A stretch of DNA of 8,298 nucleotides from Desulfobacterales bacterium (lineage in GTDB: Bacteria; Desulfobacterota; DSM-4660; Desulfatiglandales; Desulfatiglandaceae), in contig JAKLQB010000511.1 in the NCBI GenBank assembly GCA_022013615.1, positions 1 through 8,298 of the forward strand, read 5' to 3'. The notes under the pieces were generated by a model. That model worked only from the letters and a program-made list of their open reading frames with translations, made no database searches and was not told the DNA's origin. Positions within the stretch are counted from its first letter, which is position 1. Each line of letters opens with the position of its first letter. Below are positions 1 through 8,298 of the stretch, in pieces. A program made the position numbers and the translations under genes.

Positions 1-240
1 AGAGGTTCGGAGTACTTGGATCTTTTTCTCCTGGGGAAGAATAAGGCGCGATTGGAGAAAGAAAAGACAAATGTGGAGAAAAGAAGCCTCCAAGTAGTCG
101 AAGATCTCAAGACAATTGATGAGGAAATTTCCGAATTGGAGAGCGAGATTTCCGGGGTGGAGCCTAAAAAACCGGTAGCTCAAGGATACAAAAAAAAGGT
201 GCCCAAGAAACCCATGAAGGTGATGACAATTGATTACTAA
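1..240 (+). CDS. Small charged coiled-coil protein, 5'-truncated by the window edge
   Basis: The reading frame is open from base 1 and ends at TAA 238-240, giving 79 visible codons. I treat it as the 3' part of a longer gene because the frame is coding-like upstream of the TTG at 16, the only nearby start, and that TTG has poor ribosome-binding-site spacing. The product is strongly charged. A Lys/Glu-rich helical stretch with heptad-like spacing of hydrophobic residues (visible residues about 15-48) predicts a coiled coil. A Pro/Lys-rich linker follows, ending in KPMKVMTIDY. There is no transmembrane segment or catalytic motif. The next gene starts 3 bases after the stop, so it is probably co-transcribed with the gas vesicle genes. 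I do not recognise the family. A small accessory gas vesicle protein is plausible from context only. Confidence 0.6.
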   Translation, partial: RGSEYLDLFLLGKNKARLEKEKTNVEKRSLQVVEDLKTIDEEISELESEISGVEPKKPVAQGYKKKVPKKPMKVMTIDY

Positions 241-243
241 GAA

Positions 244-636
244 GTGAGGAATACGGTGGAATGGAAGTGGTCAGCAGGAGCCAGGGTCAAAGTAGATAGC
301 TCCCCGGAGGTCCGCAAGGACAATGACAAACTTGATTGTGCCTTCTGCGGCGGGAGTGGAGAGAGGCCAAAAGGTTCCAGGTGTTCCGTATGCGGCAGTA
401 GCGGAAAGGTCTCGGTTCAGCCGCCTTTTGTAAAGTGCGCCTACTGCAAGGGAAGAGGGGAGGAGAAGCCCCGAAGCAATGTGACCTGCACGGTGTGCAG
501 GGGCAAGGGCTATGTGAGCATAAAGGAGCCGGTTGAGATTTGCTCCAAGTGTGGCGGTAAGGGGTCTGACCCTCACAACAAGCTACCTTGCTTGAAGTGC
601 CGGGGAAAAGGCATAGTTTCCGTCAGGGAGAGATAA
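244..636 (+). CDS. Stand-alone DnaJ-type zinc-finger protein (six CXXC motifs in three units)
   Basis: A 130-aa protein with six CXXC motifs at residues 32-35, 47-50, 65-68, 82-85, 100-103 and 116-119. Four continue as the full CXXCXGXG of the DnaJ cysteine-rich region; the second reads CSVCGSSG. They form three tandem units of about 34 residues, each with two motifs and ending in a [KYI]VS[VI] strand. DnaJ itself has four motifs binding two zinc ions; six here suggest three zinc sites. There is no J domain, Gly/Phe linker or DnaJ C-terminal substrate domain. The N-terminal 30 residues are unremarkable (WKWSAGARVKV). GTG 244 is used as the start; in-frame GTG 256 has a better Shine-Dalgarno (GAGGA at 246-250) and may be the real one. 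The next gene's ATG abuts this stop codon. A role in binding or folding Gvp proteins is inferred from the motif and context. Confidence 0.8.
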   Translation: MRNTVEWKWSAGARVKVDSSPEVRKDNDKLDCAFCGGSGERPKGSRCSVCGSSGKVSVQPPFVKCAYCKGRGEEKPRSNVTCTVCRGKGYVSIKEPVEICSKCGGKGSDPHNKLPCLKCRGKGIVSVRER

Positions 637-1725
637 ATGGAAGATAAAAAAGCCGTTTCCGTGCGCAAGCTGGCAGCCCTGGAGCGAAAAAGGGCCCTGG
701 GCCTGCCGATCAAGCGCCCTGCAATTTCTACACTTGAGCGTCAGGCCCGAGAATGGAAGCGGCGTGAAGAGATGGGGAAGTCAGAGGACGGAGGTCAGAG
801 GTCAGAGGTCAGAGGACGGGGGACGGAGGACGAAGGTCCGAAGTCGGAGGTCCAAGATGAAATGTTTCAAATCGGACTTGCAGAGCCCAGGGCCTCTGGT
901 GATCCTGAAACGAGTGAGGGATTTGACTGGAAGCTATATCAATCGGAGCAAGGCGAGGGCAAAAAGAAAGTCAATATTTTGAATACTGCCTCTGTTGCGC
1001 GTATGGCCCGTAAGATCATGGCAAGAGAATGGGCCATGGCACTGGGCGGAAGGAGCCAGGAAAGCAACCAGACCAGTATTGAAAGAAAGGCAGCCGAATA
1101 CGGAAAGAAAAAGGAGGCCGAGAGAGAAGGGAAAGAGAAGGAGAAACAAAGGGCCCGTAAACAGAGGGCAGCATTTGAAAGGGTCTTCCAGGCTTTTGGT
1201 CACGAGCTGTTAAAGTCACCCAAACCCATCACACCGGAGGCGGCAGAGGCCCTTCTGGAAGAGTCCCTGAGCAAGGTGGGTGAATGCATTAAGATAACCT
1301 GGCAGCCTCATGGATGCGAGATATGCATGGAGCCCTGGGAGGAAAGGAGGCTGAGGCGAAAAAATGGGGAAATTTTCCCTGCTGTGTTTCAGGCGACGAT
1401 CGATGATAATTTCATGCTTAACTCCTTTCAGAAGATCGAAGACCCGCAGGTCCTCCGACAAACCCGGAACGACATAATCTTAAAGAACATCCTGCTAAGT
1501 TTCAGGAAGTCGGCCGGAGAGGATTTACATGCCTTTGAAGATGCTATTGGCGAAGGGGGACGCATTATCCAGTCAATGAAAACGAATGGAGGCTGGAAGA
1601 TAAGCTTCGAGCCCTGGGAGGAGATGCGAAAGCGAAATGTGGAGCGTAAAGGCCTGCCTCCCATTGTGACCAATGTGATTAACGCAGACAAACATTTTAG
1701 GCACGTCTCCTGTGAGAGGGTCTGA
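637..1725 (+). CDS. Conserved-looking 362-aa protein of unknown function with duplicated EPWEE module
   Basis: I do not recognise this family. ATG 637 directly follows the TAA of the zinc-finger gene, with a purine-rich GGGAGAG upstream, so translation is probably coupled. The N-terminal 45 residues are basic and helical. Residues about 48-74 are low complexity (SEDGGQR, SEVRGRG, TEDEGPK, SEVQDEM) and are encoded by an 11-unit heptamer DNA array, so that segment is probably an insertion. Residues about 145-185 are a Lys/Glu/Arg-rich helix, likely a coiled coil. The C-terminal half is more globular and carries the motif EPWEE twice, at residues 232-236 and 325-329. Each is preceded by G-x-x-I-x and followed by a basic stretch, as if a module of about 37 residues had been duplicated. 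No membrane segment, signal peptide or catalytic motif is seen. Its place before gvpN suggests a gas vesicle accessory role. Confidence 0.75.
   Translation: MEDKKAVSVRKLAALERKRALGLPIKRPAISTLERQAREWKRREEMGKSEDGGQRSEVRGRGTEDEGPKSEVQDEMFQIGLAEPRASGDPETSEGFDWKLYQSEQGEGKKKVNILNTASVARMARKIMAREWAMALGGRSQESNQTSIERKAAEYGKKKEAEREGKEKEKQRARKQRAAFERVFQAFGHELLKSPKPITPEAAEALLEESLSKVGECIKITWQPHGCEICMEPWEERRLRRKNGEIFPAVFQATIDDNFMLNSFQKIEDPQVLRQTRNDIILKNILLSFRKSAGEDLHAFEDAIGEGGRIIQSMKTNGGWKISFEPWEEMRKRNVERKGLPPIVTNVINADKHFRHVSCERV
780..856 (+). repeat. Heptamer tandem array inside a coding region
   Basis: Eleven consecutive 7-bp units without phase slip: GTCAGAG, GACGGAG, three more GTCAGAG, GACGGGG, GACGGAG, GACGAAG, GTCCGAA, GTCGGAG and GTCCAAG. 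Because 3 x 7 = 21 bases, translation gives a 7-residue period in the 362-aa protein (residues about 48-74). The array keeps the reading frame open. Confidence 0.9.
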
Positions 1726-1730
1726 GCTTC

Positions 1731-1784
1731 ATGAAAAACATGGAAGCGTTTCTGAATTCCCGGAAGGGAATAGAAAATCAATGA
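1731..1784 (+). other. 17-codon open frame, possible gene remnant
   Basis: A short open frame in the 102-base gap before gvpN reads MKNMEAFLNSRKGIENQ and stops (TGA 1782-1784) just inside the following heptamer array. It starts 5 bases after the upstream stop codon, and a GAGAGGG sequence lies in the correct place for ribosome binding. It also contains a small hairpin (ATTCCC, loop GGAA, GGGAAT at 1756-1771). It could be a real micro-ORF, the stub of a gene cut off by the repeat, or chance. I favour chance or a stub. Confidence 0.2.
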
Positions 1785-1807
1785 CCAATGACGAGTGACC
1801 GATGACC
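1780..1807 (+). repeat. Short heptamer array upstream of gvpN
   Basis: Four 7-bp units (AATGACC, AATGACG, AGTGACC, GATGACC) lie just upstream of the gvpN ribosome binding site. A GTG inside the array (1795) is in frame with gvpN and could be mistaken for its start. Confidence 0.75.
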
Positions 1808-1827
1808 AACAGAATAGGGGAAGAACT

Positions 1828-2748
1828 ATGTATAGTGAAAATGTCTCAGAAGTAACGCCCATCATTATTGATAAGGATCAGCCCGGTTTTGTCCGTTCCG
1901 ATTATGTCGAAGGGATCATGAGGCGGGCCATGACTTATATGAGGGCCGGCCTTCCCATCCACCTCAGTGGGTCGGCAGGCACAGGGAAAACAACAATAGC
2001 CATGTATCTGGCGGCCCAGATCGGCCGACCTGTCATGCTGGTACACGGCGATGATGAGTTCGGCACCTCTGACCTGATCGGAGGCCAGTACGGGTACAGC
2101 CGGAAGAAAATGGTGGACAATTTTATCCAGAGTGTCCTCAAATCTGAGGAAAAGGTGGCTCCCGAATGGATAGATAACCGGATAACCGTGGCCTGCAAAT
2201 ATGGATTTACCCTCATTTACGATGAATTCACCCGTTCCAGGCCTGAAGCAAACAATGTGCTGTTGGCCATACTGGAGGAAAAGATACTGGATCTGCCGGC
2301 CGGTCGCGGTGAAAACGGATACCTGCGTGTCTCACCGGACTTTCGCGCAATCTTTACAAGCAACCCTGAAGAATATGCGGGAGTGCATAAGGCCCAGGAC
2401 GCCCTGAAAGACCGGATGATCACCATCAAGCTTGGCCACTATGACCGGGAAACCGAATCTTCCATTGTTGAGGCCAAATCAGGCATACCCAGAGATGAGG
2501 CTGTGAGGGTGGTGGATATTATTCGTGCCTTTCGGAAAAACAGCGAGAACAACAATCAACTCAGTATTCGCGCCTCCATCATAATAGGGAAGATATTGAA
2601 CGAAACATCAATGAGGGTTGACTGTGATAACAGTGAGTTTGTAGAGGCATGCATGGACGTGATCGATTTTGATTCAAATGGGTTCAAAAGCCGACCCGAA
2701 GGCGAGATCCGGCGACTTATAATGGACACAATTAAGGGTTACTGTTGA
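1828..2748 (+). CDS. gvpN: Gas vesicle protein GvpN (AAA+ ATPase)
   Basis: A 306-aa MoxR-like AAA+ ATPase of the GvpN family, which is needed for normal gas vesicle enlargement and acts in the cytoplasm. The Walker A motif GSAGTGKT is at residues 48-55. Walker B is LIYDEF with D132-E133, followed by the family signature TRSRPEANNVLL. A sensor-1-like Asn is N179 (FTSNPEEY), and the N-terminal strand has the typical FVRSDYVEGIMRRA. Length is close to that of other GvpN proteins, which are usually about 300-350 aa. ATG 1828 is chosen because GGGGAAG (1817-1823) sits at good spacing. The longer frame from GTG 1795 lies in a heptamer repeat and adds residues with no family similarity. The gene ends at TGA 2746-2748, with the first gvpF/L 79 bases downstream, probably in the same transcript. 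No key residue appears to be missing. Confidence 0.96.
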   Translation: MYSENVSEVTPIIIDKDQPGFVRSDYVEGIMRRAMTYMRAGLPIHLSGSAGTGKTTIAMYLAAQIGRPVMLVHGDDEFGTSDLIGGQYGYSRKKMVDNFIQSVLKSEEKVAPEWIDNRITVACKYGFTLIYDEFTRSRPEANNVLLAILEEKILDLPAGRGENGYLRVSPDFRAIFTSNPEEYAGVHKAQDALKDRMITIKLGHYDRETESSIVEAKSGIPRDEAVRVVDIIRAFRKNSENNNQLSIRASIIIGKILNETSMRVDCDNSEFVEACMDVIDFDSNGFKSRPEGEIRRLIMDTIKGYC

Positions 2749-2827
2749 GGGATACTATGTCACCAAATGAGCGTGAAGTGGGGAACTTCAAGCTTAGAGC
2801 ATAGAGCAGAACTGAGTAGGAGAGATA
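2749..2827 (+). other. gvpN-gvpF/L spacer with three heptamer units
   Basis: A non-coding gap of 79 bases. At 2791-2811 there are three 7-bp units (AGCTTAG, AGCATAG, AGCAGAA), a different sequence from the other arrays but the same period. The gap ends with an AGGAGA ribosome binding site (2818-2823) for the next gene. No terminator is seen, so read-through from gvpN is expected. Confidence 0.5.
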
Positions 2828-3580
2828 ATGGCCGGGGAAGGAAAATATCTTTACTGTATCATTGAGGGAAACGAAGGGCGCAATTTCGGGCCTATCGGTA
2901 TCGGGGAGCGCGGAGATATCGTCTCGGCGGTGGGGTATAATGACCTGAGTGCTGTCATCAGTAATTCTCCCATGACAAAGTACGTCATCAATAGGGAGAA
3001 TTTGACCGTCCACGAAAAGGTCATTGAGGAGGTCATGAAGGATTATACGGTGCTTCCGGTGCGGTTCTGCACTATAGCGGCCAGCGCTGAAGAGGTGCGC
3101 ACTCTCATCCGAAGGCGATATTCGGAATTCAATGGTCTCCTGAAAGATATGGACAACAAGGTGGAGATGGGTCTGAAGGTGCTCTGGAAAGATATGAACC
3201 AGATCTTTCATGAGATACCGGAAGAAAACAGTGAAGTCAGAAAGCTCAAGAAGAAGGCTGCGGCCAAATCAGGGAAAAGTGATGTCGGCCAGAAGATCGC
3301 ACTGGGCAAGGCGGTAAAGGCTGCACTGGAGGCAAAAAAGACCAGTGAAGGCAAGCAAATCTTGAATACGTTCAAACGGTCTGCTGTCGACGTACGAACA
3401 AATGATCTGTTCGGAGACAGTATGCTCTTAAACGCGGCCTTCCTCATAGACAGGTCACGTGAAAAAGAGTTCGATTTCCTGGTGGAAGACCTGGTGAAAA
3501 AATATGACGGCCGGGTGAACTTTAAATATGTTGGCCCGGCCCCACCCTTTAATTTCGTCAATATTGTGGTGAAGTGGTGA
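2828..3580 (+). CDS. gvpF/L: Gas vesicle protein, GvpF/GvpL family (first copy)
   Basis: A 250-aa GvpL/GvpF-family protein. Members are minor, essential gas vesicle assembly proteins thought to act early, with GvpF contacting GvpA. Family signatures are visible in order: N-terminal strand KYLYCIIEG (residues 6-14), the helix and strand HEKVIEEVMKDYTVLPVRF (about 62-80), NAAFLID at 202-208, and the C-terminal VGPAPPFNFV beginning at 235. Residues about 140-175 form a Lys/Ala-rich helix. Length is typical, with no extra domain. ATG 2828 is supported by AGGAGA at 2818-2823. F and L cannot be told apart from sequence alone. It is paralogous to the J-domain fusion at 6711, with the NAAFLI and VGP motifs spaced identically. 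The stop is followed immediately by a heptamer array. Confidence 0.94.
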   Translation: MAGEGKYLYCIIEGNEGRNFGPIGIGERGDIVSAVGYNDLSAVISNSPMTKYVINRENLTVHEKVIEEVMKDYTVLPVRFCTIAASAEEVRTLIRRRYSEFNGLLKDMDNKVEMGLKVLWKDMNQIFHEIPEENSEVRKLKKKAAAKSGKSDVGQKIALGKAVKAALEAKKTSEGKQILNTFKRSAVDVRTNDLFGDSMLLNAAFLIDRSREKEFDFLVEDLVKKYDGRVNFKYVGPAPPFNFVNIVVKW

Positions 3581-3615
3581 GAGGATTGAGGATTGAATAT
3601 TGACGATTGAATATT
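3581..3615 (+). repeat. Heptamer array directly after gvpF/L
   Basis: Five 7-bp units start at the base after the stop codon: GAGGATT twice, GAATATT, GACGATT and GAATATT. The 21 bases at 3596-3616 recur exactly at 3748-3768. Confidence 0.8.
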
Positions 3616-3752
3616 GATGCCCATGTAAAAAGTCCTTTTCACATGGATTTAGGAATTAAGGTATTTAGGAATTACGAATTATTTAAGTAGGTTATGATTG
3701 CGACAACTTGAATAATGCTGTAAATTTTGACTTTTTACGATACCATCAATAT
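3611..3752. mobile_element. Putative MITE-like non-coding element with imperfect terminal inverted repeats
   Basis: The two ends of this 142-bp AT-rich segment are inverted copies of each other. Bases 3611-3634 match the reverse complement of 3729-3752 at 19 of 24 positions: an outer perfect ATATTGATG, five mismatches, then an inner perfect GTAAAAAGTC. Perfect 21-bp direct repeats (3596-3616 and 3748-3768) flank and partly overlap the ends. The interior has no coding potential. The left end also holds a hairpin (CCATGTAAAAAG against CTTTTCACATGG, 3621-3646, one mismatch). Inverted ends, direct flanking copies and lack of a gene fit a non-autonomous element. The flanking repeats are, however, long for a target duplication and belong to local heptamer arrays, so a rearranged repeat is the main alternative. 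Confidence 0.4.
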
Positions 3753-3788
3753 TGACGATTGAATATTGGACCTTGAACTTAGGACTTG
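3747..3788 (+). repeat. Heptamer array upstream of the Hsp20 gene
   Basis: Six 7-bp units: CAATATT, GACGATT, GAATATT, GGACCTT, GAACTTA and GGACTTG. The first three match the array at 3595-3615. A TTGACT at 3727 with a poor TATTGA 17 bases downstream is the only promoter-like pair I see nearby, and it is not convincing. Confidence 0.65.
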
Positions 3789-3807
3789 TAAACAGGAGGT
3801 TATGGTG

Positions 3808-4374
3808 ATGACGGAAAAAAGGAAGAAGGGAAAAAAAGAGGAAGGCATCAACATTGATTTCGGTTTGGGAGGGCTGTTCAAGGGGCTTGGAAATTTTATC
3901 GATACAGTGAACAAGTTGGCCGAAAAAGGTGAAGAGCTATCCAGGACAGGTGAGATCAAGTTCAGTGGTCTTGAAAAGATCAAAGGACTTAAGGACCTGA
4001 AAGGGGTTTACGGAATAAATATCCGCACATTGGCCGATGGCAGGCCTTCGGTCCAGCCCTTTGGGAATATCAGAAAGACACCCAAAGGTCCGGTTGTGGA
4101 GGAGGTACGCGAACCCATAGTTGACGTGTTCGATGAAGCTGAGGAGATCCATATTGTTGCGGAGATGCCGGGAATCGCGGAGAAGGACATCAACCTTGAG
4201 CTCAAAGGGGACATCTTGAATATCAGTGCCGAGGGAGAAACCAGAAAATATCAAAAAGAGGTCCTCCTCTCCCGACAAGCCAAAAGCGAGGATATGACCT
4301 GGACATATAAGAACGGGATTTTGGAAATCAAAATAGTGGTCAGTGGTCGGAGATCAGAGGTCAGTAGTCAGTAG
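3808..4374 (+). CDS. hsp20: Hsp20/alpha-crystallin small heat shock protein of the gas vesicle cluster
   Basis: A 188-aa small heat shock protein, an ATP-independent holdase. Residues 1-100 are a basic N-terminal region with a Gly/Leu-rich amphipathic stretch (GINIDFGLGGLFKGLG) and a helix. The alpha-crystallin domain covers about 102-178. It starts EPIVDVFDEAEEIHIVAEMPG, spaced like the classic VDVxE...AEMPG opening, and closes with the conserved NGILEIKI (169-176). Small heat shock proteins are known in gas vesicle clusters (GvpH in haloarchaea), so a role in vesicle assembly or stability is likely. ATG 3808 is chosen because AGGAGG (3794-3799) lies 8 bases upstream; ATG 3802 is too close. 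The last 11 residues and the TAG stop are encoded by a heptamer array, so the native C-terminal tail, normally carrying an I-x-I/V motif, appears to have been replaced. Confidence 0.9.
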   Translation: MTEKRKKGKKEEGINIDFGLGGLFKGLGNFIDTVNKLAEKGEELSRTGEIKFSGLEKIKGLKDLKGVYGINIRTLADGRPSVQPFGNIRKTPKGPVVEEVREPIVDVFDEAEEIHIVAEMPGIAEKDINLELKGDILNISAEGETRKYQKEVLLSRQAKSEDMTWTYKNGILEIKIVVSGRRSEVSSQ

Positions 4375-4478
4375 TCAGTGGTCAGTTGCAACGAACAACG
4401 AACAACGGACAGTGATCAGGGATCAGCAACCAGCAACGAGTAACCAGCAACCAGTAACCAGTAACCAGCAACGAGCAA
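4339..4478 (+). repeat. 140-bp array of 20 heptamers between hsp20 and cdc48
   Basis: Twenty consecutive 7-bp units keep exact phase. They begin as GTCAGTG/GTCAGTA types and drift through GCAACGA, ACAACGA and TCAGGGA to CCAGCAA/CCAGTAA types. The array starts inside the Hsp20 gene, supplies its stop codon (TAG 4372-4374), and ends 4 bases before the ATG of the Cdc48 gene. That start therefore lacks any normal ribosome binding site. The spacer otherwise holds no gene, promoter or terminator that I can see. Confidence 0.92.
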
Positions 4479-4482
4479 CTAA

Positions 4483-6684
4483 ATGAAAGCCGCGAAAAAA
4501 GGTATAGAAAGCAAAATCATCGCCCTGAAGGTAGCCGAGGCCGCTTCCAAGGATGTGAGTCGGGGCATTGTCCGCTTTGACCCCGCCGATTTCAAAAAGA
4601 TCGGCGTCGAAGTGGGAGATGTGGTGACCATTAAGGGAAAAAGGGAGACCGTAGCCAAGGTCTTGCCTGCATACATGGAAGACCGTGGCAAGGGTTTGAT
4701 TAGATTGGACGGTATTACTCGCGATAACGCCAAGGTCGGCATTGATGAAAAAGCCAGTGTTACACAAACTGATTTCCAGCCGGCCCAAAACATCGTTGTT
4801 GCCCCCTTGACCGTGATGCGTTCCTACGATGCCCGCTATATAGGAAGCCTCTTAGAAGGGTTACCGCTAATAGAAGGAGATACGGTCAGGGCCAGACTTT
4901 TTGGGACACGAACTCAGGATTTCAGGGTCGTGTCTACCAGGCCCCAAGGGGTGGTGATGATCCATCCCAAGACCGTTATGAAGGTCCAGGAGAAAAAGGA
5001 GGTTGGCGAGGCCAGGGCCAGAATATCCTATGAAGATATCGGGGGTCTTGGCAAGGAGATCCGGCGGATCCGCGAGATGATTGAGCTCCCTCTAAAATAT
5101 CCTCAGATCTTTGAAAGACTGGGCATCGATCCTCCCAAAGGGGTCCTTTTACACGGTCCCCCCGGGTGTGGCAAGACCCTCATCGCACGGGCCGTGGCCA
5201 ATGAGACCGTTGCATACTTCGGGCATATCAGTGGCCCGGAAATCATGCACAAATACTATGGCGAAAGCGAGGCCCATCTCAGACGGATATTTGATGAGGC
5301 CACTGCCAATACTCCAAGCATTATCTTTTTGGACGAAATTGACGCTGTCGCCCCCAAGCGGGAGGAGATGGGGGGCGAAAAACAGTTGGAAAAGAGGGTG
5401 GTGGCCCAGCTTCTGGCACTGATGGACGGGCTCTCCTCCAGGGGTCAGGTCATCGTCATTGGCGCCACCAACATCCCCAATACCCTTGATGCGGCCCTGA
5501 GAAGACCGGGCCGTTTCGACCGTGAAATCGAAATCAGCATACCGGACAAAAACGGGCGGCTTCAGATCTTGGATATACACACAAGGGGAATGCCTTTGGC
5601 CGAGGATGTGGACCTTGTTCGCTTATCAGAGATCACCCACGGGTTTGTGGGAGCTGACCTGGAGGCCCTTTCCCGTGAAGCGGCTATGGTCACCCTGAGA
5701 AAGATCTTCCCTAACATTGACTTCCAGATGGAAGAAATCCCGTACGAGGATTTGATGAAACTTCATGTCACCATGGACGATTTCATGGAGGCTCTGAAGG
5801 AGGTGGAGCCTTCGGCCATCAGAGAGGTGTTCACTGAGATCCCGGATGTGAAGTGGAGCGATGTCGGTGGTCTTGCCGAAGTAAAGAGGGTGCTAAGGGA
5901 GACCATTGAGTGGCCCCTGAAATATGGCAAACTATTTGAACATGCCAAGACCAGCCCCTCCAAAGGAATATTGCTCTTCGGCCCTCCAGGAACAGGGAAG
6001 ACTTTACTTGCTAAGGCAGTGGCATCGGAATCGGAGGTGAATTTCATTTCAGTCAAGGGTCCGGAAATCCTCTCCAAGTGGGTTGGGGAGAGCGAGAAGG
6101 GGATCAGGGAGGTATTCAAAAAAGCAAAGCAGGCATCCCCCTGTATCATATTCTTCGATGAAATAGATAGCATTGTTCCCAGACGAGGCTCAGAGGCTGC
6201 ATCCCATGTGGTGGATCGTGTGATAAGCCAGTTTCTGACCGAACTGGATGGCATTGAGGAACTCAAAGGAATCGTTGTTTTAGCGGCTACAAACCGGCTT
6301 GACATCATCGACCAGGCCTTGCTGCGGGCAGGCAGATTCGATTTTCATCTGGAGCTTCCCATTCCTGATGAAGAGACGAGACTTGAGATATTCAAGGTCC
6401 ATACAAGAGAGAAACCCATGGCCGCTGACGTTGATCTCAAGTCCTTAGCCGGTTCTACAGATGGGCTTGTAGGATCGGACATAGAATCCATTTGCAGGAA
6501 GGCCTCTATGACGGCCATAAGGGAGTTTATCGAAAAAGGCGGTGAAGACTACTCTGATTTTGCGATTTCGGATAAACATTTTAAGGAGGCATTATCAGTG
6601 GTCAGTGATCAGTATCCTTTTAACCGGGGTCAACGAAAAACAAAAAAAGAAGTAACCTCTGCGAACTCTGCGTCTCTGCGGTGA
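4483..6684 (+). CDS. cdc48: Cdc48/VAT-like AAA ATPase (N domain, D1, D2)
   Basis: A 733-aa unfoldase of the Cdc48/p97/VAT family, which forms hexamers and threads proteins through its pore using ATP. Residues 11-170 are the Cdc48 N domain ([21 protein letters not shown], double-psi barrel). D1 has Walker A GPPGCGKT at 225-232 (Cys in place of the usual Thr), pore loop KYYGESE, Walker B IIFLDEID (D284-E285), sensor N330 and arginine fingers R341/R344. D2 has Walker A GPPGTGKT at 500-507, pore loop KWVGESE, Walker B FFDEID (D559-E560), N604 and R615/R618, with PGRFD changed to AGRFD. Both ATPase sites look intact. The three-domain form is typical of archaea and eukaryotes and less usual in bacteria. 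ATG 4483 leaves a complete N domain but has no Shine-Dalgarno. Residues about 705-711 and 725-733 and the TGA come from repeat DNA, so the natural C-terminal tail is altered. A role in gas vesicle remodelling is inferred from position. Confidence 0.95.
6594..6614 (+). repeat. Three heptamers within the 3' end of the Cdc48 gene
   Basis: ATCAGTG, GTCAGTG and ATCAGTA are the same family as the start of the array at 4339. They encode residues about 705-711 (SVVSDQY), just after the last recognisable helix of D2. Confidence 0.6.
6657..6684 (+). repeat. GC-rich CTCTGCG repeat, copy 1
   Basis: A 28-base unit built from CTCTGCG motifs and ending GCGGTGA. It encodes the last residues of the Cdc48 protein, and its final TGA is that gene's stop codon. 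Related copies lie at 7758-7785 (opposite orientation) and 8169-8196 (same orientation). Confidence 0.85.
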
Positions 6685-6710
6685 AAAGATACGAAACTTT
6701 GGAGGAAAAA

Positions 6711-7742
6711 ATGACAACAGACGGAAAATGCATTTACGGCTTTATCAGTACAGATGAGCCTGAGAACCTGGGAGCCATAGGCATTGACCAGGGAGAAGTT
6801 CACATCATTTCCTATCAAGATATCGCTGCCGTGGTCAGCGATTCGCCATTTATGCCATTTGATTCCCTTCCCAAAGAAACACTCCTCCGCAACCTGGCCA
6901 TCTATCAAGCCGTCATCGAAAGGGTGATGAAAGATCATCACATTATACCGGTGAAATTCGGAACCACGGTTCAAGGAGAAGAAGAACTAAAGCGAATCTT
7001 GGAGAAAGGTTATGGACAGATCAATTCGAACCTCAAGGAAATGGAGGACAAAATAGAGCTCGATGTAGCCGCCCTGTGGAGCGATCTGGAGACGGTTTTA
7101 AAGGAAATAGGAGAAGAAGGGGAGATTAAAAGACTTAAGGAAGAAGCAGCATCAAGATCCTCTGACCAGGTTTTTGAAGTCAAGATAAATGTGGGCAAAT
7201 TGGTCAAGGCATCACTGGACAAGAAGAGAGAAGAATGTGCTTCCCATATCTTGGATGTCCTGAAAAGGGAAACGCATGACCATCGCTACCACAGTGTTAT
7301 GGATGATTCTATGATTTTGAATGCAGCTTTTCTGATCAATAAGGATAAACAGGATGTATTTGAAGGAAAGGTGGGTGAATTGGATAGACACTACCAGGAC
7401 AAAATAAATTTTCGAATCGTAGGCCCACTTCCCCCTTATAGCTTCAGTACATTCGAGATCACAAAGGTGGAGTTTGCGGAGCTAAACGAGGCCAGGGAGA
7501 TGCTGGGGTTAGGGAAAGAGACCACGGCCATGGAAATCAGGGAGACTTACCGGGATCTGACCAGAAAGTTTCATCCCGATAAACTTCCGGGTAATCAGGA
7601 AGCTCAAGATAGGTTTGAGAAGATCCACAAGGCCTACCATATGCTCAGCGATTATTGCAATGAGGAGCGGTGTTCCTTTAAGGAAGTAGTTGTCAGAGAG
7701 TGGCTAAGTGTCAGACCGGCGGAACAGTCAGGAACGGTGTAG
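6711..7742 (+). CDS. gvpF/L: GvpF/GvpL-family gas vesicle protein fused to a C-terminal DnaJ J domain
   Basis: A 343-aa fusion protein. Residues 1-250 are a complete GvpF/L domain: KCIYGFIS (6-13), the helix and strand ERVMKDHHIIPVKFGT, NAAFLIN at 204-210 and VGPLPPYSF beginning at 237. Residues about 258-315 are a J domain. Helix II (IRETYRDLTRKF) leads to an intact HPD motif at 288-290, followed by helix III (AQDRFEKIHKAYHML). HPD is the motif that stimulates Hsp70 (DnaK) ATPase, so this protein should recruit DnaK to gas vesicle assembly. The tail (316-343) is short, with no zinc finger or DnaJ C-terminal domain. ATG 6711 follows GGAGG (6701-6705) at ideal spacing; the upstream GTG 6681 lies in the repeat and overlaps the Cdc48 stop. 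Frame and length are clean, so the fusion is not a frameshift artefact. Confidence 0.95.
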   Translation: MTTDGKCIYGFISTDEPENLGAIGIDQGEVHIISYQDIAAVVSDSPFMPFDSLPKETLLRNLAIYQAVIERVMKDHHIIPVKFGTTVQGEEELKRILEKGYGQINSNLKEMEDKIELDVAALWSDLETVLKEIGEEGEIKRLKEEAASRSSDQVFEVKINVGKLVKASLDKKREECASHILDVLKRETHDHRYHSVMDDSMILNAAFLINKDKQDVFEGKVGELDRHYQDKINFRIVGPLPPYSFSTFEITKVEFAELNEAREMLGLGKETTAMEIRETYRDLTRKFHPDKLPGNQEAQDRFEKIHKAYHMLSDYCNEERCSFKEVVVREWLSVRPAEQSGTV

Positions 7743-7757
7743 GATTTTGTTAAGTGT

Positions 7758-7785
7758 TCACCGCAGAGGCGCGGAGGACGCAGAG
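7758..7785 (-). repeat. GC-rich CTCTGCG repeat, copy 2 (inverted)
   Basis: The reverse complement of this segment matches 8169-8196 at 23 of 28 positions, including an 11-base perfect end (TCACCGCAGAG read on the + strand). With copy 3 it brackets the GxxExxY gene as inverted repeats. Confidence 0.85.
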
Positions 7786-7794
7786 ATCTCTGTT

Positions 7795-7829
7795 TTTCTC
7801 TTTGCCGTTGAGAGGACGGCAAAGAGAAA
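7795..7829. repeat. Perfect 14-bp stem-loop after the gas vesicle genes
   Basis: TTTCTCTTTGCCGT (7795-7808) and ACGGCAAAGAGAAA (7816-7829) are exact inverted copies around the 7-base loop TGAGAGG. No T-run follows on either strand, so it is not a standard intrinsic terminator. It could still slow or end transcription of the cluster. It directly follows repeat copy 2 and may be part of that repeat unit. Confidence 0.7.
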
Positions 7830-7869
7830 CGGATCTGACACCTCACAACCTTTAGTTTATAGAATCACA

Positions 7870-8163
7870 ATGCAAATTAATGAGCTGAGTAGCAAAATAA
7901 TCGGTGCAGCTATAGAGGTACACAAAGCGCTTGGCCCTGGATTGCTTGAATCAACTTATGAGGAGTGCCTATGTCATGAATTAAATCTACGAGGTTTATC
8001 GTTTGAAAGGCAGAAACCATTATCTGTCACATATAAGGAAAAGAAACTGGATTGTGGTTATAGGTTGGATGTAGTTGTCGAAAACGCAATCATACTTGAA
8101 TTGAAATCATGTGAGAAAATTGAGCCGATCCATAAGGCGCAGCTTCTGACATATCTGAAATAA
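7870..8163 (+). pseudogene. GxxExxY family protein, truncated at the 3' end
   Basis: A 97-aa product with the family-defining G-x-x-E-x-x-Y in GPGLLESTYEECL (residues about 22-34) and a PD-(D/E)XK-nuclease-like core YRLDVVVENAIILELKS. The family's cellular function is not established. Full members run to about 120-130 aa; this one stops at QLLTYLK, just where the final strand-helix segment should begin. The stop lies 5 bases before repeat copy 3, so it looks cut off by the repeat or by the event that placed it there. ATG 7870 is the family-like start (MQINELSSKIIGAAIEVHK); the frame further upstream reads through the hairpin and repeat and is not coding. The ribosome binding site is poor. By rough count GC is near 35-37%, below the cluster, pointing to separate origin. 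It is not expected to act in gas vesicle formation. Confidence 0.8.
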
Positions 8164-8168
8164 AACAA

Positions 8169-8196
8169 TTCTGCGTTCTTTGCGTCTCTGCGGTGA
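8169..8196 (+). repeat. GC-rich CTCTGCG repeat, copy 3
   Basis: A 28-base unit ending GCGGTGA, in the same orientation as copy 1 at the end of the Cdc48 gene and inverted relative to copy 2. Confidence 0.85.
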
Positions 8197-8211
8197 GCAA
8201 TTACAAGAATA

Positions 8212-8298
8212 ATGAGAAAACTGATTTATGTGCCGGTTATACATGTGGAGTCTGATATGGGAAGCATTGGTTCCGCCATCGATAAAAGAAGCGCAGAG
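8212..8298 (+). CDS. Start of an unidentified gene, 3'-truncated by the window edge
   Basis: An open frame of 29 codons runs off the right edge, beginning MRKLIYVPVIHVESDMGS. The alternation of hydrophobic residues (LIYVPVIHV) looks like the first beta strand of a soluble protein, and the sequence is coding-like to the edge. The only upstream ribosome-binding hint is a weak AAGAA. There is too little sequence to assign a family. It lies beyond the repeat-bracketed GxxExxY gene, so there is no evidence that it belongs to the gas vesicle cluster. Confidence 0.5.
   Translation, partial: MRKLIYVPVIHVESDMGSIGSAIDKRSAE

Follow-up and report, generated by a model that had tools for sequence, protein, structure and literature searches.

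The gas vesicle cluster in the window, by which we mean the whole stretch of 8,298 nucleotides analysed here (Desulfobacterales bacterium GCA_022013615.1, contig JAKLQB010000511.1, positions 1-8,298 of the forward strand), encodes a GvpF/L protein extended by a J domain, and the evidence supports its assignment as a putative gas-vesicle-specific J-domain protein in which GvpF/L would be the targeting part. The presence of a separate Hsp70 gene beside the fusion in some related clusters suggests a chaperone machine dedicated to the building of gas vesicles. The solubility of the very hydrophobic GvpA and its feeding into the shell are named as an open question in parts of PMC11445434 and PMC10903477, where GvpF is proposed as a transient chaperone of GvpA2. 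A J domain on a proposed GvpA chaperone, together with the Hsp70 of the relatives, points to ATP-driven Hsp70 cycling in these lineages, and heterologous gas vesicle production could benefit.

The fusion gene lies at 6711..7742 on the plus strand, and its GvpF/L and J parts share a single uninterrupted reading frame, which bears out the first-pass annotation of an HPD-bearing J domain fused to GvpF/L. Above the Pfam cut-offs, the protein matches only GvpL_GvpF (PF06386, residues 8-246, the full domain; E 9e-57, 193.3 bits, cut-off 23.6) and DnaJ (PF00226, residues 263-314, at 7497..7652; E 6.5e-15, 55.4 bits, cut-off 27.8), and is thus devoid of a cysteine-rich or DnaJ C-terminal domain. The HPD motif (residues 288-290, at 7572..7580) is unchanged in all 32 aligned rows and is predicted to lie between helices II and III, as placed from the family. 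Among J domains of solved structure, the closest in sequence are those of DNAJC5 (E 7e-11) and of DnaJ from E. coli (E 7e-10). Judged on sequence, the product is a class C J-domain protein, with a J domain on a non-DnaJ scaffold and, as seen in related clusters, a divergent Hsp70 encoded nearby. HscB, which works with HscA, is an analogue, being a class C protein with a client-specific partner domain; the window protein differs from this class in that its scaffold is a gas vesicle protein and its J domain is C-terminal. With respect to GvpF itself, the fusion adds about 85 C-terminal residues containing the J domain, a feature unmentioned for GvpF in the available parts of PMC11445434 and PMC10903477.

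The fusion is neither a chance arrangement nor a local oddity, since HPD is present in 118 of the best 120 of 830 homologues found. In the same best 120, it lies after residue 220 in 117 proteins and earlier in P0104, and of the two lacking it P0105 departs from the rest partway through the J domain, as if frameshifted, and the sequence of P0115 is cut short. Moreover, in a FastTree reconstruction of 194 GvpF/L rows (42 with J), the J label required three changes against a mean of 38.6 when shuffled, and these few changes indicate that the fusions in essence go back to a single ancient paralogue.

We read 80 genomes around their gas vesicle genes, 41 with the fusion (J+) and 39 without it (J-). 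All 41 survey fusions picked up by the J profile contain HPD. No Hsp70 gene was seen in the window, which ends before any Hsp70, whereas in 13 of the 41 J+ genomes an Hsp70 is linked to the gas vesicle genes. In 11 of these 13 the Hsp70 gene follows the fusion on the same strand at a distance of 1.4-8.5 kb; in G002 it is further off on the same contig, and in G006 it is on another gas vesicle contig. Where at least 18 kb were read, a linked Hsp70 was found in 10 of 22 J+ and 0 of 19 J- genomes (p = 0.00066), and within the phylum of G002 in 8 of 9 and 0 of 8 (p = 0.00041), although J and Hsp70 are phylogenetically non-independent here because J changes only twice on the CDC48 tree and a pair test is without power. 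Within that phylum the J+ genome G224 showed no cluster Hsp70 in 35 kb read, and outside it none was seen in 11 of the 13 J+ genomes read over 18 kb or more. Three of all 39 J- genomes have a cluster Hsp70: the contigs of G082 and G240 begin next to or inside a GvpF/L gene, and the J domain of G764 has lost its HPD.

PF00012 spans nearly the whole of the cluster Hsp70 (E 4e-199 in L001, 3e-201 in L024, 6e-193 in L077). The possibility that these genes are simply the housekeeping DnaK was rejected, as 17 cluster rows separate from 14 housekeeping rows with an SH-aLRT support of 100 in a quick tree. In DnaK, R167 is described as the partner of the Asp of HPD in parts of PMC7289447 and PMC13012618. 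The equivalent residue is Arg in all 15 cluster Hsp70 rows spanning the site (13 from HPD clusters, two from clusters where the J gene was unseen); in all three related genomes whose J domain has lost HPD, it is Met. This joint loss, which counts as one event, is suggestive, and because 8 of 89 otherwise invariant columns are changed in these Hsp70s, the Arg change could arise by chance at about 9%.

It is possible, if doubtful, that the J domain serves general quality control by recruiting the housekeeping DnaK alone, or that it is a structural appendage kept by descent, with the cluster Hsp70 engaged in some other task. The 28 of 41 J+ genomes in which no cluster Hsp70 was seen would fit such a role, as would the J remnants without HPD in G764, G779, G848 and G010, the last in a gas vesicle stretch devoid of Hsp70. 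However, the retention of HPD among the best 120 homologues, the same-strand position of Hsp70 downstream of the fusion and the fact that it was not seen in the 19 J- genomes read over at least 18 kb all argue against it.

The second element is a stand-alone zinc-finger protein at 244..636 (plus strand; PF00684, E 2e-11). Its start is more likely GTG 256 (126 aa) than GTG 244, since close homologues begin with VEWKW, MEWKW or similar; the free DnaJ-type CXXC protein called in the first pass therefore stands, with its start moved. Six regularly spaced CXXC motifs occur at residues 32, 47, 65, 82, 100 and 116, five being exact CXXCXGXG and the second CXXCXSXG, and exactly six are found in 45 of 48 homologues. 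According to Pfam the protein is a CXXCXGXG domain without a J domain, and a search up to E 1 detected neither a G/F region nor a DnaJ C-terminal domain nor the counterpart module in this protein or in the fusion, in agreement with the earlier claim that neither carries the other parts of DnaJ. J-less zinc-finger chaperones such as ZnJ2 are described in part of PMC5818400. The window protein (AF2 model, mean pLDDT 78.7) resembles BSD2 and ZnJ2 in that a stand-alone CXXCXGXG protein adjoins the genes of a large assembly. Its fold may be similar, with BSD2 structures ranking high in the fold comparison, but it has six motifs rather than four. The BSD2_CRD profile was not listed for it and appeared among its relatives only at E 0.031 (L193:10783-11439). 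Membership of the Anti-TRAP family was likewise rejected for the window protein (PF15777, 20.7 bits, cut-off 32); one relative passes with 37 bits and another stands right at 32.0.

The first-pass annotation had taken the two proteins as one DnaJ split in two, and as a general rule this was not borne out by the co-occurrence check that it had itself suggested: zinc-finger genes of any kind were found in 12 of the 41 J+ and in 9 of the 39 J- genomes (Fisher p = 0.62), and so the zinc-finger gene fails as an obligate other half. For example, the 2.59 Mb contig of G387 carries the fusion and a cluster Hsp70, its zinc-finger matches being ordinary DnaJ only, and the 3.28 Mb contig of G223 carries a zinc-finger protein with neither fusion nor cluster Hsp70 seen. 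Co-occurrence does emerge for the subtype of the window, found in 7 of the 41 J+ and in none of the 39 J- genomes (p = 0.012), and for any zinc finger outside the phylum of G002, where 7 of 26 J+ and none of 19 J- genomes have one (p = 0.016), both associations resting on few independent events. The subtype forms a clade of 10 rows (support 91/85), all from J+ clusters, and five of the seven genomes harboring it also have a linked Hsp70 (G002, G004, G006, G282 and G671, not G224 and G422). Zinc-finger genes lie upstream of the fusion gene by 1 (G006), 8 (G671), 46 (G422) and 201 bp (G432), those of G671 and G422 belonging to the subtype and those of G006 and G432 not, and one contig of 30,697 bases appears to hold homologues of the fusion, the zinc finger and ORF 637..1725 together. 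On the other side, no zinc-finger gene was seen in 29 and no gene of the subtype in 34 of the 41 J+ genomes, several paralogues often occur together (G002 has seven matches spread over six ORFs), and their commonest neighbour is GvpN, with 14 of 42 ORFs at most 300 bp upstream of it.

We regard the zinc-finger protein as more likely a J-less chaperone in its own right, acting as a holdase or as an adaptor in assembly, a helper rather than the missing half of DnaJ. A role as regulator instead of chaperone, by binding nucleic acids or in an anti-TRAP-like manner, is unlikely; it would be consistent with weak matches to Anti-TRAP in the window protein (E 4e-4) and to winged helices in relatives (HTH_45, E 6.5e-5, L024:7316-8410; MarR_2, E 1.3e-5, L021:18316-19344), and with a local Foldseek match to Anti-TRAP over 32 columns (1.5 A, probability 0.99). 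Distinctly unlikely, too, is a complete dedicated Hsp70 machine of the fusion, its own divergent Hsp70 and a window-subtype zinc finger that would hold clients in trans as a detached module; if true, one co-chaperone would be spread across separate genes around a shell-protein chaperone. A bipartite co-chaperone made of fusion and zinc finger, at least with the subtype of the window, is quite improbable, its associations with J+ clusters being set against the many genomes lacking one partner and the report in part of PMC5818400 that the J-less relative ZnJ2 has no synergy with DnaK/DnaJ/GrpE. As in class A DnaJ, J domain and CXXCXGXG motifs are both encoded in the cluster, but on two proteins six kilobases apart, with six CXXC instead of four; the pair was rejected as a split class A DnaJ on co-occurrence over all 80 genomes, motif number and the lack of a C-terminal domain.

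The reading that we favor, with some reserve, is that GvpF/L-J hands GvpA-type subunits to Hsp70 while the zinc-finger proteins act as J-less holdases. The GvpF/L part would bind the hydrophobic GvpA-type shell subunit, as reported for GvpF elsewhere, and the J domain, being intact, would recruit Hsp70, stimulate its ATPase through HPD and load the subunit. In the lineage of the window the partner would most likely be a divergent Hsp70 a few kb downstream in the same cluster, as seen in relatives, and the housekeeping DnaK would serve clusters without their own. Synteny with L001 and L024 would place such a gene some 8 kb past position 7742. The zinc-finger protein may hold or adapt vesicle proteins, and Hsp20, GvpN and CDC48 may provide further holdase and remodelling factors. 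Of the dedicated chaperone system proposed earlier, a chaperone assembly in the cluster and a J protein targeted by GvpF/L are supported, the more so by the Hsp70 genes of related clusters, and the zinc finger as obligate half is not.

The other chaperone-related genes recognized in the first pass are indeed present, all on the plus strand: GvpN, an AAA+ ATPase (1822..2748; TIGR02640, 339.2 bits, cut-off 266.8), an Hsp20-type small heat shock protein (3808..4374; PF00011, 26.2 bits, cut-off 20.8), narrowly below the NCBIfam threshold (NF041800, 139.3 bits, cut-off 140), and a CDC48-type double AAA+ ATPase (4483..6684; TIGR01243, 955 bits, cut-off 802.65). A GvpF/L without J domain is encoded at 2828..3580 (plus strand; PF06386, E 1.4e-63). 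Genes for an ATPase (ArsA) and a chaperone (Hsp20) within gvp clusters are already described in PMC2963123, and ArsA homologues are also found in several clusters related to the window; DnaK, Hsp70 and DnaJ never occur in the main text of that article, as far as it was available. Among the papers listed in our search on gas vesicles, none recognisably dealt with a J-domain GvpF/L with Hsp70 or a zinc finger.

Two further genes lie near the start of the window. The ATG of ORF 637..1725 (plus strand) abuts the stop codon of the zinc-finger gene; no family was found for its product by Pfam and no functional name among the listings of its 65 homologues, and its AF2 model (mean pLDDT 72.7) displays a duplicated C-terminal alpha/beta unit. 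ORF 16..240 (plus strand), with no Pfam family above cut-off, codes for a small, charged, coiled-coil-like protein whose N-terminus is probably cut by the window edge. Its homologues, of 102-130 aa and matched mostly across their own C-terminal part, occur at loci L001, L002, L005, L006, L008, L023 and L074-L077, and its kin recur adjoining GvpN and GvpF/L in related clusters.

The window covers part of a gas vesicle gene cluster. Its plus strand carries a short coiled-coil-like ORF (16-240) and genes for a zinc-finger protein (244-636), an uncharacterised protein (637-1725), GvpN, GvpF/L, Hsp20, CDC48 and, at 6711-7742, a GvpF/L with a fused J domain. The last of these, hereafter the J fusion, and the zinc-finger protein had been read in the first-pass annotation as two parts of one split DnaJ. 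Both genes are real: the fusion matches PF06386 (E 9e-57) and PF00226 (E 6.5e-15), and the zinc-finger protein has six CXXC motifs, five of them exact CXXCXGXG. The HPD motif is invariant in all 32 aligned J-fusion rows and was found in 118 of the 120 homologues listed, and the fusion represents a single old paralogue. The zinc-finger protein reads as three related units, with regular CXXC spacing in 22 of 23 aligned homologues having six CXXC (median gaps 11, 14, 13, 14 and 12); position 256 is a more likely start than 244, because close homologues open with VEWKW, MEWKW or similar. The ATG of the 637-1725 gene abuts the zinc-finger stop codon; its product belongs to an unnamed family (65 homologues), shows a duplicated alpha-beta-beta-alpha-beta-beta unit in its AF2 model, and the family is perhaps GvpO-like (match in one of 34 members, E 0.2).

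In each of the two phyla searched, the zinc-finger family is a component of gas vesicle clusters. Among 395 genomes from the phylum of the relative G002, 13 have it (E <= 1e-13), every one with GvpF/L on a zinc-finger contig; among 400 from that of G008, seven have it, and in each it shares a contig with a GvpF/L match. Co-occurrence with the J fusion was counted, duplicates removed, in 80 genomes through stretches around gas vesicle or zinc-finger matches: 35 on the G002 side (27 of the 395 from a first profile search, five from a further search, and G001, G004 and G007) and 45 others (40 of 52 new matches, and G003, G006, G008, G009 and G010). The twelve matches left out were G405, G566, G596, G598, G612, G616, G689, G702, G708, G730, G748 and G773; judging by match ranges, the J fusion is probably present in G405 and G730, and zinc fingers occur in the first of these. 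A genome counted as J+ if it matched a profile of the J domain made from rows that carry HPD. Since the survey began from the J-fusion profile, the J- set consists of clusters with a GvpF/L still similar to the fusion, and as assemblies are often fragmentary and of unknown completeness, absences are soft except on long contigs.

Over all 80 genomes, zinc fingers of any kind showed no association with the fusion (12/41 J+ vs 9/39 J-, p = 0.62), nor did they within the phylum of G002 (5/15 vs 9/20, p = 0.73). Outside that phylum the counts favour the split-DnaJ reading (7/26 vs 0/19, p = 0.016). Two genomes with long contigs break the pairing in both directions. G387 has the J fusion and a cluster Hsp70 (gas-vesicle-linked, apart from housekeeping DnaK) and, genome-wide, a 372-aa DnaJ yet no zinc-finger match. 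G223 has the zinc-finger protein in a cluster showing only a J-less GvpF/L, is not among the genomes matching the J-fusion profile at E <= 1e-20 (at most five candidates scored per genome), and its one Hsp70 at E <= 1e-60 groups with housekeeping DnaK. In G003, zinc finger and fusion lie on different contigs. For the family as a whole, no tie to the J fusion could be shown.

The window's zinc-finger subtype may be tied to the fusion: in a tree of 43 rows, its protein falls in a clade (support 91/85) with nine further proteins, every one of them from a J+ cluster. Among 42 zinc-finger ORFs (overlapping duplicate loci excluded), 32 share a stretch with GvpN, and in 14 GvpN follows on the same strand within 300 bp; a J-less GvpF/L follows at 280-346 bp in five (G016, G200, G287, G327, G363) and the J fusion at 1-201 bp in four (G006, G422, G432, G671), two of which, G422 and G671, fall in the window's clade. 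In G004, the window's order of small ORF, zinc finger, ORF637 homologue and GvpN closes one contig, after a further zinc finger and GvpN; a second contig opens with GvpN, GvpF/L, CDC48 and J fusion. Contig C251 of G002 (stretches L021 and L022) has seven zinc-finger matches in six ORFs; L021:7340-7783 is an ORF with eight CXXCXGXG, and L021:18316-19344 shows weak winged-helix matches following its zinc fingers.

The cluster Hsp70, with PF00012 matches such as those in stretches L001 (E 4e-199), L024 (E 3e-201) and L077 (E 6e-193), was found in 13/41 J+ vs 3/39 J- genomes (p = 0.011). Where at least 18 kb were read, the counts were 10/22 vs 0/19 (p = 0.00066), divided into 8/9 vs 0/8 in the phylum of G002 (p = 0.00041) and 2/13 vs 0/11 elsewhere (p = 0.48). 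CDC48 likewise tracks J (35/41 vs 12/39). J changes only twice on the CDC48 tree (44 rows), and therefore no association independent of descent is shown. The three J- genomes with a cluster Hsp70 are G082 and G240, where the contig starts beside or within a GvpF/L gene, and G764, whose J domain lacks HPD. In 11 of the 13 J+ genomes the Hsp70 gene follows the fusion on the same strand, at a distance of 1.4-8.5 kb; the window ends 556 bases past the fusion gene, so any Hsp70 of its own would be out of sight. Better-scoring additional DnaK genes occur elsewhere in the searched genomes (15 of the 16 with cluster Hsp70, G764 being looked at separately), that of G008 visible only as a contig-end piece. 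In a quick tree of 17 cluster rows (two being G006 pieces) and 14 of 19 housekeeping loci (L232, L235, L237, L238 and L241 left out at the ORF filter), a branch of SH-aLRT 100 separates the cluster rows from the housekeeping rows; the tree contains two long rows, G764 and G100. Next to the cluster Hsp70 stands a protein of ~300 aa whose C-terminal part is weakly Hsp20/CS-like, a possible further co-chaperone (L024:15227-16135; similar in G006, G082, G240, G282 and G304).

Three genomes, G764, G779 and G848, have lost the HPD but retain some of the start of the J domain. Their Hsp70 has Met at a column that we take to be DnaK R167, numbering being placed through the RIINEPTA motif; each of the 15 other cluster rows that reach this column, and every one of the 14 housekeeping rows, has Arg there. 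This Arg is given as the partner of the Asp of HPD in passages of two papers (PMC7289447, PMC13012618). In G764 and G779 the Hsp70 gene has other gas vesicle genes beside it; on the G848 contig none were seen. Because the three form one clade, in which 8 of 89 otherwise invariant Hsp70 columns are altered, the coupled loss is a pointer and not proof. The HPD is also lost in G010, with no Hsp70 in its 21-kb stretch.

We rate the system as a client-specific J protein plus, in relatives, its own Hsp70. Passages of earlier work have GvpF binding GvpA and propose it as a transient chaperone of GvpA (PMC11445434, PMC10903477, PMC9501494). We infer that a J domain on GvpF/L would turn this holdase into a J protein passing the subunit to Hsp70, which would free it under ATP control for assembly. 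In function, the window's zinc-finger protein comes closest to the zinc-finger chaperones that lack a J domain. One of these, ZnJ2, is described in PMC5818400 as holding clients and giving no help to DnaK/DnaJ/GrpE. Structure searches with the zinc-finger protein did not separate DnaJ, BSD2 and Anti-TRAP. The presence of Hsp20 and ArsA genes within gvp clusters has been published (passages of PMC2963123), and no description of the J fusion or the cluster Hsp70 was found among the titles, abstract openings and passages that searches on gas vesicles brought up. Databases show the fusion as a combination of Pfam domains; in one source a homologue is labelled 'DnaJ-domain-containing protein 1'.

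Other fusions occur as single ORFs, one of 469 aa joining Hsp20, GvpF/L and a J domain (L084:1199-2608, G133) and one of 892 aa joining CDC48 to a GvpF/L-like C-terminal part (L123:76-2754, G231). Window positions 7870-8163 encode a small PD-(D/E)XK nuclease-like protein (PF13366, E 9e-37), with similar ORFs at L021:9459-9830 and L075:17819-18211. Short repeated intergenic strings, CTCTGCGT and CTGCGGTG with their reverse complements, surround the fusion gene (6666-6683, 7759-7785, 8187-8195), and low-complexity repeats were spotted by eye near 780-860 and 4330-4480.
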